Shown in pieces: positions 39,668 to 46,895 of a stretch of 64,000 nt of DNA. Both the position numbers and the translations under genes were made by a program. Where the stretch lies: the NCBI RefSeq assembly GCF_003122085.1, contig NZ_QEXV01000004.1, positions 1 to 64,000 on the forward strand, in the 5' to 3' direction. Under the pieces are notes generated by a model. It saw only the letters and a program-made list of their open reading frames with translations, made no database searches and had not been told where the DNA came from. Each line of letters opens with the position of its first letter. The stretch's first letter is position 1. The stretch comes from Marinicauda salina (GTDB lineage Bacteria; Pseudomonadota; Alphaproteobacteria; Caulobacterales; Maricaulaceae).

Positions 39668-40645
39668 TTAGCGGCGTGAGGAGTCCGGACGGCTCGCAGC
39701 CCCGCGGACCTTCTGCACGGCCGGCAGGATGAGGCCGGCTTCCCCGTCGGTCGCGCGAGCGTCGATCTCGTCGGGCTCGATGCCCGCGAGCGGCTCGGGA
39801 CGGCCGTCGAAGCGGCTGTCGATCTCGTCGGGCTCCAGGCCCGCGCGCGGCCGGGGACGGTCGTCGAAACGGCTGTCGATCTCGTCGGGCTCGACGCCCG
39901 CGTTCGGCACGCCGTCATTGTTGGTGTCGCCGACCGCGACGCGGACCTGCTTGGCCGCGTCCTTCGACTTGCCGCCGTCCGAGCGGTCGTCGCTCATGCG
40001 CGCGTCGATCTCGTCGGGCTCGATGCCGGCAAGCGGTTCGGAACGGCCGTCGAAGCGAGCGTCGATCTCGTCGGGCTCGAGGCCGGCGGTCCCGGCGCCG
40101 TGGGCGTCGAACACGCGCACATGAGCGCCGCCGCTGGCCGCGGCGCCGACGCCGTCGCCGGGAATGTCGTCGATGCGGCAGAAGGACTTGCCGCACTGGC
40201 CGGCGAGCGCCTCGTCGTCGCCCGACTGCGCGGTCTCGATGGTCGAGGCCGTCGCGCGCTGCATCTTCGGTCCGGCGCTGGAAGTGTTTTTCCGCGGGGC
40301 GGCCGCCTCCGGCGCGTTGAGGTTGATCCAGTCACAATGCGCGTTGGACGGGCAGGCGTTCGCGGCGGCCGCCGGCGCGTCGATCTCGTCGGGCTCGACG
40401 CCGGCGTCGGCGTTGGACTGCCTGCGCGGGGCGACGGCCTGGACGGCGGGCAGCAGCAGCGCGGCGGCCTCGGCCTCTTCCTCGTCCGCGCCGAGGGCGC
40501 GGGCGGCGAAGCGGGCGAGCGCGCTGCCGCGGGGTTCTTCCCGCTCGACCCGGCGGTCGTCGCGGTTCTGCTGGGCCTCGACGGGCGCCAGCGCGGTCAG
40601 GGCGAGCGCGCTGGCGAGCCCGATGGTGGTGGGGAGGGTCTTCAT
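39668..40645 (-). CDS. Exported protein with GxEPDEID repeats
   Basis: The 325-residue protein has a signal peptide (about residues 1-24, cleavage after VEA). It contains at least six copies of AG[VIL]EPDEID[AS], most followed by RFD-R-P/E spacers, one near residue 82 and five between about 190 and 305. A related LPAVQ motif occurs both before the first repeat (LLLPAVQAV) and after the last (LILPAVQKV). One repeat follows a DTNNDGVPNAG segment that resembles a calcium-loop. The acidic repeats suggest ion binding or a protein interaction surface, but this is inference and no family was recognised. The repeats are also similar at DNA level, indicating recent expansion. It is divergent from the HTH regulator at 40822. 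Confidence 0.75.
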   Translation of the reverse strand: MKTLPTTIGLASALALTALAPVEAQQNRDDRRVEREEPRGSALARFAARALGADEEEAEAAALLLPAVQAVAPRRQSNADAGVEPDEIDAPAAAANACPSNAHCDWINLNAPEAAAPRKNTSSAGPKMQRATASTIETAQSGDDEALAGQCGKSFCRIDDIPGDGVGAAASGGAHVRVFDAHGAGTAGLEPDEIDARFDGRSEPLAGIEPDEIDARMSDDRSDGGKSKDAAKQVRVAVGDTNNDGVPNAGVEPDEIDSRFDDRPRPRAGLEPDEIDSRFDGRPEPLAGIEPDEIDARATDGEAGLILPAVQKVRGAASRPDSSRR

Positions 40646-42709: not shown

Positions 42710-43633
42710 TCAGCCGTCTTCGAGCAGGCGCTGGTAGCTGTCGACCAGCGAGGCGTAGGGCGGCACGGGCGTGAACACGGCCTCTCCGTCGACCATCACC
42801 GACTGGCGGATCTCGAAGTGCAGGTGGTAGGTCGTCGGGGTGCCGCCGAAATAGTTCGACACGATCCCGATGCGATCGCCCTGTTCGACCCGGTCGCCCG
42901 GCGCGACCCAGAGCGTCCACGGATCGAGGTGCAGGTAGTAGTACTGCGTCCCGTCGTCGGCGAGCAGCTTGACGATATGGCCCGACACCGAGGTGATGTC
43001 GCCGTCTTCGACCGCCACGGCGAAGAAGTCGTCCTCGTCGTCGGGCGTCGTCGGCGGGCAGGCCGGCGGGCGGACGTCCTGGCCCTGGTGGCCGGTTCCG
43101 CTGGGGCACATCGGCGTCTCGTAGCCGCGCGTCTCGCAATAGTTGTCGCGCCAGGGATATTCGTAGTTCTCGGCGTCGCACTGCCAGCCGCCGCCGCCCT
43201 GGCTGCCGCCGGGCATGTAGACCTGCGAGTTGGCGTAGGCCGCGGGCAGCTCGATCGGGAAGCGGATGTTCTCGGCGTAGATGGTGTCGTCGGCGCGGCC
43301 GGTCCCCGATCCGGGGATCAGGTCGCCAGCGGGCAGATAGCTGAATTCGTCGCCCCAGTGATCGGTCGGGGTTTCGGGTTCAGGTTCCGGCTCGGGTTCC
43401 GGCTCGGGGTCGGGTTCCGGCTCGGGCTCCGGTTCGGGTTCGGGCTCCGGCTCAGGCTCCGGTTCAGGTTCAGGTTCAGGCTCCGGCTCGGGCTCAGGCT
43501 CGGGCTCCGGTTCCGGCGCGGGTTCGCTTTCCTCCGGCGGCGCGGAGGCGCAGCCGGACGGGCCGAGGCCGAGCACGGCGAGCGCCCCGGCCCCGAGCAG
43601 GGCCGCGAGCAGCAGGTTGCGCGCCGAACTCAT
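42710..43633 (-). CDS. Secreted M23 metallopeptidase with Glu-Pro repeats (copy 1)
   Basis: The 307-residue protein has an N-terminal signal or anchor, then a run of Glu-Pro dipeptides (about residues 35-88), then an M23-type peptidase region. The zinc-site motifs are [12 protein letters not shown] and [10 protein letters not shown]; the YYYLHL segment between them is also typical. M23 enzymes cut peptidoglycan cross-bridges or peptide substrates. A Cys-rich loop, [20 protein letters not shown], precedes the active site. ATG 43633 overlaps the stop codon of the upstream gene by four bases. Copy 2 at 44526-45401 is about 90 percent identical over the final 220 residues by eye, indicating duplication or gene conversion. 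Confidence 0.85.
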
Positions 43634-44481
43634 TGCGGCGTCCCCTGCGGTCCGGGCGCGCCGCCGCCGATCGCCAGGCGGCGGTAGATCGACCGCGCCG
43701 TCTCGGGATCGCGGCAGGCCGCGTTGTTCTCCGGATCCTCGCACATGACCTGGATCGAGTAGGCCGCCCCGTAACGGGTGAAGCTCAGCTCGACGCCGAA
43801 GCGGGTGCGCGTGACCGTCACGCCGTCTGCGTCGCGCGCCGAGAGGATTCGCCGCACCAGGCGGGCGTCGCCCTCGGGCACGTTGATGATGCGCGAACCG
43901 GTCGTCTCGATGGCGAGATCGCCGACATGCATGCTGGCGGCGTAGACATGGTCGCGCGGGAAGACGAGCATGCCCGAGACGCCGCCTTGATCCACGCTCG
44001 CGGTGCGCGCATCCGCCACCCGCGGAACCAGCATCGGCAGCCGCGGGCGCTGCAGCTCCTCGGGATCGATATTGACCATTTCCGGCGTCGGCGGGCGCTG
44101 TATGGCGGCCGCTGTCGTGAGTTCGGCGCTGTCGCGCTCCATCTGGGCGGACAGATCGTACCGGGCCTGGTCCCAGTTGATGGGCGCCAGCAGCCGGCCG
44201 TCGGCGTCGCGCTCGGGCGCGGCGGGCTGCTCGTCCTCGGTCTCCATTTCCTGCAGACGCTCCAGGATCGCCTGGTCCAGAACCATCCGGTCGCGGATCT
44301 GTCCCTCGATCGCATCGACCGCCTGGAAATCCACGCGATCGAGCTGCATCTGGAACGCCGCGTCCTCGACCGGCTGATCGGCGGTCGTCGCGTCCTGCGC
44401 CGCCGCGCCGGCCGCCGCCAGCGCCAGCAGGGCCGGAGCGGCGGCCGCGGCCCGGGCCCAGCTCTTCAAGCGATGCGCCAT
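43630..44481 (-). CDS. Exported protein, unrecognised domain, paired with M23 copy 1
   Basis: The 283-residue protein has a signal peptide (cleavage near GAAAQ) and an uncharacterised mature domain. Blocks shared with the proteins at 45401-46315 and 46392-46895 are [53 protein letters not shown] and [19 protein letters not shown], with a conserved cysteine pair ([16 protein letters not shown]). The stop codon overlaps the M23 gene start by four bases, so the two are translationally coupled. I infer they act together at the cell envelope. Confidence 0.7.
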
Positions 44482-44525
44482 GAGCTCGTCTCCCTTGTTG
44501 CGTCCGGCGGTGCGGCCGCCTTCGT

Positions 44526-45401
44526 CTAGCTGTCCGATTCCTCGCGCAGCAGGCGTTCGTAGCTGTCGACCAGAGAAGCGTAGGGCGGGACCGGCGTGAA
44601 GGTCAGCTCGCCGTCGACCATCACCGACTGCCGGATCTCGAAATGCAGGTGATAGGTCGTCGGGGTGGAGCCGAAATAGTTCGACACGATCCCGATGCGA
44701 TCGCCCTGTTCGACCCGGTCGCCCGGCGCGACCCACAGGCTCGTCGGCTCGAGATGCAGGTAGTAGTACTGCGCGCCGTCGTCGGCGAGCAGCTTGACGA
44801 TGTGACCCGACACCGAGGTGATGTCGCCGTCGGCGACGGCCACGGCGAAGAAGTCGTCCTCGTCGTCGGGCGTCGTCGGCGGACAGGCCGGCGGGCGGAT
44901 GTCCTGGCCCTGGTGGCCGGTTCCCGCCGGACACATCGGCGTCTCGTAGCCGCGGGTCTCGCAATAGTTGTCGCGCCAGGGATACTCGTAATTCTCCGCG
45001 TCGCACTGCCAGCCGCCGCCGCCCTGGCTGCCGCCGGGCATGTAGACCTGCGAGTTGGCGTAGGCCGCGGGCAGCTCGATCGGGAAGCGGATCCCCTCGG
45101 CGTAGATGGTGTCGTCTTCCCGACCGGTTCCCGACCCCTCGATCAGGTCGCCGGCGGGCAGATAGCTGAATTCGTCGCCCCAGTAGTCGGTCAGCGTCTC
45201 GGGCTCGGTCGGCTCGGGCTCTTCGGGTTCCCGCTCGTCGGGTTCCGGATCCTCCGGCTCGGGCTCTTCGGGCTCGGGCGTCTCCTCGCCCGGCTCGTCC
45301 GGCGGCGCGCCGCCGTCGTCCGGCGCCGGCCAGAAGATCAGCGCTGCGAGGCCGATCACGGCGACGATCAGGGCCAGGATGTAATCGCGTCCGCGTTCCA
45401 T
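44526..45401 (-). CDS. Membrane-anchored M23 metallopeptidase with Glu-Pro repeats (copy 2)
   Basis: The 291-residue protein has an N-terminal transmembrane segment (about residues 7-25), a Glu-Pro-rich linker (about 30-75) and the same M23 region as copy 1, with zinc-site motifs [12 protein letters not shown] and [10 protein letters not shown] and the loop [20 protein letters not shown]. By eye about 20 of 220 residues differ from copy 1 beyond the linker. Its N-terminus differs (anchor instead of a signal with a cysteine), so the two may be located differently. The start codon overlaps the stop codon of the paired gene at 45401. Confidence 0.85.
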
Positions 45402-46315
45402 CACCGGTTCTCCATTCCTTGGGGCGAGCCGCCGGACAGCGCCAGGCGGCGATAGACCGCGCGCGCGGTCTCGGGATCGCGGCAGGCCGGGGTGTTCTCC
45501 GGATCCTCGCACATGATCTGGATCGAGTAGGTCGCGCCGAAACGATTGAACACGAGTTCGACGCCGGCCCGGTTCTGCGTGATGCGCACGCCGTCGTCCT
45601 GGCGCGCCGCCGCCAGGCGGCGGCGCATCGGCTCGTCGGCGGTCATTTCGCGCATCGCGACGCGGGAGCCGGTGACCTCGATGGCGAGTTCATCGACATG
45701 CATGCTCGCCGAGTAGACGTGGTCACGGGGAAACATCAGCATCCCGTCGCCCGCCTGGGCGTGACGCACGCCGGCGGTTCGCGCGTGCGCCACGCGCGGC
45801 GTCAGCACCGGCAGGCGCGGGCGCTGCAGCTCCTCGGGCTCGATATTGACCGTGCGGACGGGGGGCGGCGTGCGCATGCCCTGCGGCGCCATCGCCGCGA
45901 CGCCCGGATTGCCGGGGTTGGAGGGCTGCGCATCCTCGTTCCAGCTCTCCTGGTCGCGCTCGAGCTGGTCCCGCCAGGCTGAATGAGCGGCGTCCCAGTC
46001 GACCGGGGCCAGCCGGCGGCCGTGCGCGTCGCGCTCGGCCGCGGCGCGGCGCGCCTGCGCCGCTTCCTGCTCGCGCTCGGCGCGCCAGGCCTCGATGCGC
46101 TCGACGATGCGTTCGTCGTAGGCCAGGCGCTCCCGGGTCCGGGCCTCGTACTCGGTCATCGGGGCGACATCGACGCGCTGAATGGGACGCTCGACGACTT
46201 GCTCGGGCTCCGGCTCGGCGGCGATCTCCTGGGCGACGGCGAAGCCGCCCGCCATCATCCCCGCAGCGGCCAGCACGCTCAATCCCGCGGCGGCGGCACG
46301 TGCAGACGATCCCAT
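45401..46315 (-). CDS. Exported protein, unrecognised domain, paired with M23 copy 2
   Basis: The 304-residue protein has a signal peptide (about residues 1-28), a coiled-coil-like stretch (YDERIVERIEAWRAEREQ), a linker and the same C-terminal domain as the protein at 43630-44481. Shared blocks are [54 protein letters not shown] and [19 protein letters not shown]. Its stop codon overlaps the M23 copy 2 start, the same arrangement as in copy 1. Divergence between the two partners is clearly greater than between the two M23 genes. Confidence 0.7.
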   Translation of the reverse strand: MGSSARAAAAGLSVLAAAGMMAGGFAVAQEIAAEPEPEQVVERPIQRVDVAPMTEYEARTRERLAYDERIVERIEAWRAEREQEAAQARRAAAERDAHGRRLAPVDWDAAHSAWRDQLERDQESWNEDAQPSNPGNPGVAAMAPQGMRTPPPVRTVNIEPEELQRPRLPVLTPRVAHARTAGVRHAQAGDGMLMFPRDHVYSASMHVDELAIEVTGSRVAMREMTADEPMRRRLAAARQDDGVRITQNRAGVELVFNRFGATYSIQIMCEDPENTPACRDPETARAVYRRLALSGGSPQGMENR

Positions 46316-46391
46316 CGCGCTCCCCCTCAGAGCCGTTCGTTAAGGGGAGATTAACACACGTGTCGCCGGCGGCGTAGGGCTTCGACGCGAC

Positions 46392-46895
46392 TCAGCCCGG
46401 CGATCCGCCCGCGACGCGTAGCGAATTGATCACGCCGCGGATAAAGCCGGCGTCGGTGCATTCGCGCCGGGCGCGCGGGTCCGAGCAGGCCACGGTGACG
46501 GTGTAGCCGGCGCCGTAGCGGGAGAAGTTCGCCTCCATGCCGGTCGCGTTGCGCGTCACGTCGGGCGCCGAACCCGGAACGGCGAAACGGCCGCGGCTCA
46601 TGCCCGCGATCTCGATCGAGATCCCCGACATCTCGCAGCTCGCCACATAGCTGTCGCCGCGAGCGAAGAAGAGCACGCCGGGATCGCCGCGGCCCGGAAC
46701 GGTGGCGCCGGCGCTGGCGGCGGGCAGCAGGACGGGCAGGCGCACGGAATCCAGGGCCGCCCGGTCGCGATTGACCGGCCAGGCCACGGCCGTGGTCTGG
46801 TCGCGGCGCGCGGCCGTCCAGTCGATCTCGGCCTGCGCGGACGCCGGCGCGGCGAACAGCAGCGCGGCGAGAAAGGCGATGACCCCCAGCTTCAT
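46392..46895 (-). CDS. Exported protein, solo third copy of the unrecognised domain
   Basis: The 167-residue protein has a signal peptide (cleavage near ASAQA) and a shorter version of the domain found at 43630 and 45401: SVRLPVLLPAASAG, GVLFFARGDSYVAS, FSRYGAGYTVTVACSDPRAR and FIRGVINSLRVAGGSPG. The conserved C-terminal cysteine pair is kept (ACSDPRARREC). No M23 gene is adjacent. It lies upstream of the two pairs on the same strand and downstream of arsM by 25 bases, but a shared role with arsM is not indicated. Confidence 0.7.
   Translation of the reverse strand: MKLGVIAFLAALLFAAPASAQAEIDWTAARRDQTTAVAWPVNRDRAALDSVRLPVLLPAASAGATVPGRGDPGVLFFARGDSYVASCEMSGISIEIAGMSRGRFAVPGSAPDVTRNATGMEANFSRYGAGYTVTVACSDPRARRECTDAGFIRGVINSLRVAGGSPG

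Follow-up and report, generated by a model that had tools for sequence, protein, structure and literature searches.

Enzymes that cut a cell's own wall have to be kept in check. A pro-region is a common feature of M23 peptidases, and the latency mechanisms described for them in the available extracts of the literature lie in the enzyme's own chain (PMC9662197): in Csd3, ShyA and latent LytM the M23 domain is controlled by an N-terminal region of the same polypeptide, and domain 1 of Csd3 blocks its own active site (PMC4356371). Here we describe a predicted M23 endopeptidase that is paired almost without exception with a second, separately encoded protein, found in a 64,000-nucleotide stretch of Marinicauda salina (GCF_003122085.1, contig NZ_QEXV01000004.1, positions 1 to 64,000; hereafter the window), which is the start of a contig (C4) in a 2.9-Mb genome (G000). 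The arrangement is real and under-described, with one experimentally touched relative: the partner family has no name in the libraries searched, and the only studied example that we found belongs to the tropodithietic acid (TDA) self-resistance genes of a marine bacterium.

That example, TdaR1-TdaR2 of Phaeobacter inhibens, resembles the window pair in its homologous partner, its M23 protein of the same subfamily and its gene order, the Phaeobacter overlap being four bases, but differs in sitting in the tda cluster beside a gamma-glutamylcyclotransferase gene. Together, tdaR1-R3 raise TDA tolerance in E. coli; TdaR1 and TdaR2 are probably transmembrane, TdaR2 might hydrolyse Cys-Gly, and the role of TdaR1 could not be predicted (PMC7497051). 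The partner is also weakly similar in predicted fold to Tsi3 of the Tse3-Tsi3 system, a single-domain binder of a peptidoglycan hydrolase, three loops of which plug the hydrolase groove and occlude the active site, and which is itself structurally like MOG1P and PsbP (PMC3792639). Tse3 belongs to a different enzyme class, and in our case no secretion system was recognised beside the pair and natural fusions exist. The best structural match, both of the model of one window partner (PB) and of the partner part of a fused protein, is the C-terminal part of RseB/MucB, but no RseB chain was found by sequence and no sigma-factor gene was recognised beside the window pair. The RseB/MucB operon carries a sigma factor and an anti-sigma factor; no such operon was recognised at the window, where a methyltransferase gene and a CBS-domain gene flank the array on the same strand and four of ten neighbours scanned have no Pfam match. 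RseB, MucB and Tsi3 all restrain other proteins.

Gene order, coupling and distribution of the pair

The window holds two partner/M23 pairs, PB-MB and PA-MA, within positions 42710-46895, and the order of transcription on the minus strand is PC, PB, MB, PA, MA:

46392..46895, minus strand: PC, partner family, exported-looking, 167 aa; tandem third copy
45401..46315, minus strand: PB, partner, 304 aa, modelled with AlphaFold2; conserved C-terminal domain at about 45401-45835
44526..45401, minus strand: MB, M23 peptidase, 291 aa, with a PF01551 match; M23 core at about 44526-45170
N-terminus of MB: hydrophobic segment and PE-rich linker, read by eye
Catalytic residues of MB: H163, D167, H216, H251 and H253, in invariant columns
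45401..45401, minus strand: PB/MB junction, 1-base stop/start overlap (TGATG)
43630..44481, minus strand: PA, partner, 283 aa; conserved domain at about 43630-44061
42710..43633, minus strand: MA, M23 peptidase, 307 aa, with a long PE repeat linker; M23 core at about 42710-43345
43630..43633, minus strand: PA/MA junction, 4-base overlap (ATGA)

These genes and overlaps, one base at PB/MB and four at PA/MA, agree with the two coupled modules proposed in the initial annotation; an alternative GTG start for MB lies at 45404. That annotation had also described a third copy of the unknown domain standing alone, which does not hold: PC is homologous to the partner family (E 6e-14; 109.5 bits against the partner profile) and lies in the same orientation as PB, 76 bp upstream of it; tandem copies occur in several genomes.

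Across genomes the pair is close to obligate. Far from occurring mostly without M23 genes, the outcome named beforehand as speaking against a partnership, the domain was found in exactly the genomes that carry this M23 subfamily. Among 99 relatives, the partner profile matched 38 genomes and the M23 subfamily (at least 192 bits) 38, the two sets being identical (Fisher values for this co-occurrence ignore shared ancestry). A class sample gave 13/385 for each, again in the same genomes, at cut-offs of E 0.001 for the partner and 1e-20 for M23, with at most eight and seven candidates, respectively, scored per genome, so that misses are possible. Gene order was equally constant: the partner match lay directly upstream of 41/42 subfamily genes in the relatives, the partner gene of the 42nd (in G016) being split between two contig ends, and of 15/15 M23 matches in the class search. 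The same order was seen at 78/80 named loci, the other two (L152, L179) ending on that side. At least 507 loci exist, the named set being the best 80 of 507 confirmed; as it overlaps the set of relatives (e.g. L103/G020), the counts are not summed.

The spread covers Alphaproteobacteria, Gammaproteobacteria, Myxococcota and Campylobacterota, the last resting on metagenome bins titled Sulfurovum and Campylobacteraceae. Titles of the named loci, several of which are metagenome bins, include Glycocaulis, Maricaulis, Brevundimonas, Asticcacaulis, Parvularcula, Bradyrhizobium, Pseudovibrio, Pseudomonas, Sulfurovum and Sorangium. In the Myxococcota the M23 subfamily occurs in 29/188 genomes, with the partner present at all 30 loci examined (of 32 M23 matches, two of which had no locus), and in a gammaproteobacterial sample in 2/274 genomes, both with the partner, one fused and one adjacent.

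Coupling at the junction is tight. Of the 76 named pairs that are not fused, the overlap is one base in 33 and four in 24 (57/76 exactly one or four), a further 17 lie within -8 to +20, and two (L126, L127) are further off; in the Myxococcota, 28/30 junctions overlap by four bases and 2/30 by one. The start codon nearest the partner stop was taken throughout, which favours small distances, not exact ones. In 4/145 distinct pairs, from Pseudomonas laurylsulfativorans, Bradyrhizobium, G188 and G455, partner and M23 form one open frame with the partner first, the other 141 being two genes (the 145-pair set omits four M23 domains at locus edges, L140, L152, L179 and L219, the last complete in L214). 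In being one chain with the partner first, the fused pairs are like the single-chain M23 latency enzymes; mostly the partner is a separate gene.

Chance or a gene-calling artefact is rejected, because the pair was found repeatedly in the genomes and plasmids searched. In several bacterial groups the partner gene immediately precedes one kind of M23 gene and is in some cases fused to it. It is therefore very likely that the two proteins act together, and the proposal that the unknown protein is a partner of the peptidase is strongly supported. The 25 largest neighbour clusters at the 80 named loci (within about 4 kb) showed no conserved third gene, real neighbours being lineage-specific, nor was any secretion-system gene family recognised by eye in these clusters. 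As the clustering used raw open reading frames, its largest clusters consist of the pair itself and antisense or shadow frames; a single example of each neighbour was inspected by eye.

Some variants of the arrangement were also met. A Bradyrhizobium genome (G490:C9:124809-124976) has a second, weak partner match (E 8e-4) in a 540-aa frame, perhaps another fusion. In another alphaproteobacterial family, G213:C13:9470-13285 (L206, L199, L204, L214, L219) is a window-like array of partner-partner-M23-partner-M23.

The M23 subfamily and the partner domain

Both window peptidases exceed the curated PF01551 cut-off of 28.7 bits (MA 39.8, MB 40.6), and N-terminal to the core both have, by eye and likewise in relatives, a hydrophobic segment and a PE-rich linker. 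The hallmark of the subfamily is an extension of about 80 residues N-terminal to the core with conserved cysteines, C71 and C81 in 145/145 distinct pairs, C57 in 139/144 and C97 in 143/145. In profile numbering, H87, D91 and H136 are present in 145/145 and H171 and H173 in 144/144, in the pattern HxxxD, H, HxH that we take to be the M23 zinc/catalytic motif. Because these positions are invariant over the 145 distinct pairs, the window enzymes look active, and peptidoglycan cleavage is their predicted activity. The M23/LytM fold was recovered in a relative's model, that of the fusion L159, against 3nyy (Z 13.3, root-mean-square deviation (rmsd) 3.0, 132 residues).

The subfamily is sharply bounded. 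In the 99 relatives its profile scored at least 192 bits for 42 genes in 38 genomes and at most 42 bits for the remaining M23 matches listed, and we set the cut at 192 bits, in that gap; at E 1e-5 the same profile matches 78/99 genomes, as ordinary M23 proteins match too. That ordinary M23 proteins share the partner is unsupported, since partner matches sit upstream of subfamily genes. Only five partner entries in the relatives do not lie directly upstream of a subfamily M23 gene: three extra tandem copies, half of a split match (G064) and the contig-broken G016. At L134, L136, L138 and L146 (Myxococcota-type loci and one gammaproteobacterial bin) the M23 proteins bear long C-terminal extensions, some ending by eye in a hydrophobic, arginine-rich tail that resembles a surface-sorting signal.

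The partner is anonymous to the libraries: no Pfam or NCBIfam model scored above cut-off for the window proteins or for 72 members. For the 72 proteins Pfam gave three families at E <=0.05 (best 4e-4, Malic_M, two members), which we judged to be chance matches; NCBIfam gave eight, with a single member each (best E 0.005). Searches of PDB sequences with partner profiles returned no credible relative, no match to Tsi3 and, with profiles A1 and A3 at E up to 10, no RseB chain. The conserved part is the C-terminal domain, some 135 residues long, which contains a P-x-L-x-P segment (first P 139/139, second P 133/140), a GAxY turn and two cysteines (each 145/145). Signal sequences recognised by eye suggest that the protein is exported. 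Three genomes of a single genus (g5), at L056:7350-8798, L057:7320-8798 and L059:7152-8594, encode partners with an extra N-terminal region of about 200-250 residues ahead of the partner domain.

The AlphaFold2 model of PB (mean predicted local distance difference test score (pLDDT) 88.4, predicted template-modelling score (pTM) 0.76) has long N-terminal helices followed by an antiparallel sheet with helices. Foldseek placed RseB at the top (E 0.012), with nothing at E <=0.001, and a structural aligner gave Z 8.4 against RseB residues 220-316 (rmsd 3.4, 89 residues), 7.9 against MucB, 7.4-7.8 against Tsi3 (102-106 residues) and 5.6 against PsbP. In the fused Pseudomonas protein, the partner region differs in sequence and again matched RseB and MucB (Z 7.2). 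All these matches are weak, with Z values near the aligner's 'possible common arrangement' level. Domain 1 of Csd3 is very remotely monellin/cystatin-like (PMC4356371), whereas the best fold neighbours of the partner are RseB and Tsi3; domains like Csd3 domain 1 did not turn up among these neighbours, which excludes nothing.

The two proteins evolve at different rates. The M23 copies in the window are 81% identical over 287 aligned residues and 92% over the 212-residue core, close to the 90% beyond the linker first estimated, and the partners PA and PB 52% over 277 and 63% over the 137-residue core, so the asymmetry reported in the initial annotation is real. By NG86, non-synonymous (dN) and synonymous (dS) divergence was 0.06 and 0.26 for the M23 core and 0.29 and 0.56 for the partner core; the partner therefore changes faster than the M23 protein, and the lower M23 dS allows for gene conversion between the copies. 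Over the 145 pairs, median pairwise identity was 24% for the partner vs 51% for M23, and the distances of the two were correlated (r 0.72), as they would be for co-inherited genes anyway.

TdaR1-TdaR2 and the proposed role of the pair

Plasmids carry the subfamily in 61/72,556 records, all from Phaeobacter and Tritonibacter, and the Phaeobacter partner as query found the same number of records in the same two genera. On pPGA1_262 of P. inhibens DSM 17395, the hypothetical protein PGA1_RS18590 is followed, with a four-base overlap, by the M23 protein PGA1_RS18585 (77.6 and 251.5 bits with the partner and M23 profiles; M23 identity 44.8%, E 4e-33 in the plasmid search), between acyl-CoA dehydrogenase and gamma-glutamylcyclotransferase genes. 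We assigned the names tdaR1-tdaR2-tdaR3 to PGA1_RS18590, PGA1_RS18585 and the gamma-glutamylcyclotransferase from order and description, as for tdaC and tdaE. The arrangement at the Pseudovibrio locus L174 is, by eye, the same. An M23 peptidase and a hypothetical protein also appear in a figure legend on the TDA cluster of Janthinobacterium (PMC13163973), and the available part of PMC9942592 mentions TdaR3 only. Outside TDA genes, the literature matches listed contained no description of the pair, most subscription papers lying beyond the search.

At the window, no tda gene or gamma-glutamylcyclotransferase was recognised directly beside the pair, which from its sequence is a relative of TdaR1-TdaR2 without recognised TDA context. 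Querying the window genome with tdaC gave nothing, in a search without a positive control whose empty answer shows nothing, and tdaE, likewise without a control, matched acyl-CoA dehydrogenases alone, none above 32% identity. How widely the family is spread speaks against a chemistry specific to TDA.

We propose, at about even chances, that partner and M23 protein form an obligate two-protein endopeptidase acting on peptidoglycan in the cell envelope, in which the partner binds and controls the enzyme. The TdaR1-like partner would be made first and both proteins exported; the conserved C-terminal domain of the partner would then bind the TdaR2-like M23 protein, perhaps at the subfamily-specific N-terminal extension, and most likely keep it latent or restricted until needed, as a trans-acting counterpart of the same-chain N-terminal latency regions of other M23 enzymes. 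While linkage, order, coupling, fusions, co-occurrence and conserved catalytic residues were computed directly, export, binding and the direction of control are inferred. Restraint is the reading that we favour, since it accords with the partner being encoded first, with the fold neighbours and with the latency common among M23 enzymes (PMC9662197, PMC4356371), although the data do not decide between restraint and activation. In the Maricaulaceae the M23 protein looks anchored by its hydrophobic N-terminal segment (by eye), which, with the long PE-rich linker, points to remodelling of the cell's own wall.

Several observations weigh against this proposal. Fold likeness says nothing about inhibition. 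The fold prediction and docking suggested in the initial annotation gave a partner fold weakly like RseB and Tsi3 and no interface: in the model of the fusion (alignment A6, 69 rows: two fusions, 63 partner and four M23 rows) both domains were folded, but the 45-residue linker had pLDDT <50 and, with pTM 0.52, their arrangement was not fixed. Such a long flexible linker suits a tethered adaptor or activator equally well as an inhibitor. Coevolution over the 145 pairs (effective number 109) placed the first inter-protein pair only 18th, and tight-clade shuffles reached the observed signal in 1/60 cases for the mean of the top 20 and 47/60 for the maximum; loose-clade shuffles reached it in 0/60 by both measures, and a few pairs connect positions 101-125 of the partner profile with positions 6-11 and 58 of M23. 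The signal is a lead only. Lastly, partner copies without an extra M23 copy are ill-suited to a simple one-to-one complex: the window genome holds three partner copies and two of the M23 subfamily at the cut-offs used, and an extra tandem copy is also present in G014, G035 and L102 and, with weaker scores, in G213, G316 and G404.

The same copies would suit a partner that is an obligate activator, adaptor or folding helper, guiding the M23 protein to where it acts or to its substrate, or aiding its maturation. This is possible, if clearly short of an even chance: fusion in one chain through a long flexible linker, the equal dosage that coupling would give and the conserved cysteines of the M23 extension all agree with it, and nothing specific contradicts it beyond the tendency of the top fold neighbours, RseB, MucB and Tsi3, all weak matches, to restrain proteins. 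It is rather unlikely that the main role of the pair is in self-protection or envelope stress, the role proposed for tdaR1-tdaR2-tdaR3 in TDA producers, with a comparable stress role elsewhere. The pair on the TDA plasmid of P. inhibens matches both profiles, and the resistance gained by E. coli speaks for such a role, but the three genes were reported jointly, so that the share of R1-R2 is not separable (PMC7497051); the accumulation of gamma-aminobutyric acid (GABA) that had been predicted was reported as not detected (PMC5421792), and the tdaC and tdaE queries of the window genome gave, within the limits stated above, no hint of TDA genes.

Antibacterial attack, also raised at the outset, would have the exported M23 protein kill rivals while the partner protects the producer. 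The Tsi3-like fold (Z 7.4-7.8), the peptidoglycan target, the fast-evolving partner and the PsbP/MOG1-like proteins found beside toxin genes in several type VI secretion system (T6SS) operons (PMC3482391) would be in keeping with this. Fusions, odd for an enzyme and its own immunity protein, and the lack of a recognised secretion gene in the neighbour clusters nevertheless argue against an attack-and-immunity pair, as do the hydrophobic N-terminal segment and PE linker on the M23 protein (by eye) and the phage records, which gave no match to the M23 core; we consider this idea unsupported and highly improbable.

Both Phaeobacter proteins start with an apparent signal sequence (by eye), by which TdaR2 would lie outside the cytoplasm, and TdaR1, whose role in self-resistance had been left open (PMC7497051), gains a family, a fold and a likely compartment. 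More tentatively, and with somewhat less than even confidence, the partners may be an unnamed, widespread family of dedicated regulators for one M23 subfamily, a separate, co-translated latency or regulatory function that is fused in some lineages. TdaR1-TdaR2 of the TDA producers would then be a copy that was recruited, and TdaR2 would be recast as an envelope enzyme, not the proposed Cys-Gly dipeptidase. A separate protein tied to a single M23 subfamily would be another way to restrain a wall-cutting enzyme, an idea that the natural two-protein and one-protein versions make open to testing straight away.

Neighbouring genes and minor observations

The methyltransferase gene upstream ends 25 bp before PC, and the CBS-domain gene downstream lies 82 bp past MA. 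A Pfam scan of ten neighbour genes matched six, none of them a recognised envelope or secretion gene, and left four without a match. PADLOC, used as a check for defence systems, gave no match for seven proteins. Matches to PHROGs fall on the M23 core, except for phrog_7187 on the PE linker of MA and a weak one, phrog_22098, on PC (E 0.02).

At nine Parvularculaceae-type loci (L153, L157, L162, L163, L165, L167, L173, L178, L181), the pair is preceded by two conserved genes (about 316 and 342 aa) that, by eye, read like a MotA/MotB-type pair. Elsewhere in the window (39668-40645, minus strand), a 325-aa exported-looking protein without a Pfam match contains, by eye, several copies of a GxEPDEIDAR/S motif.

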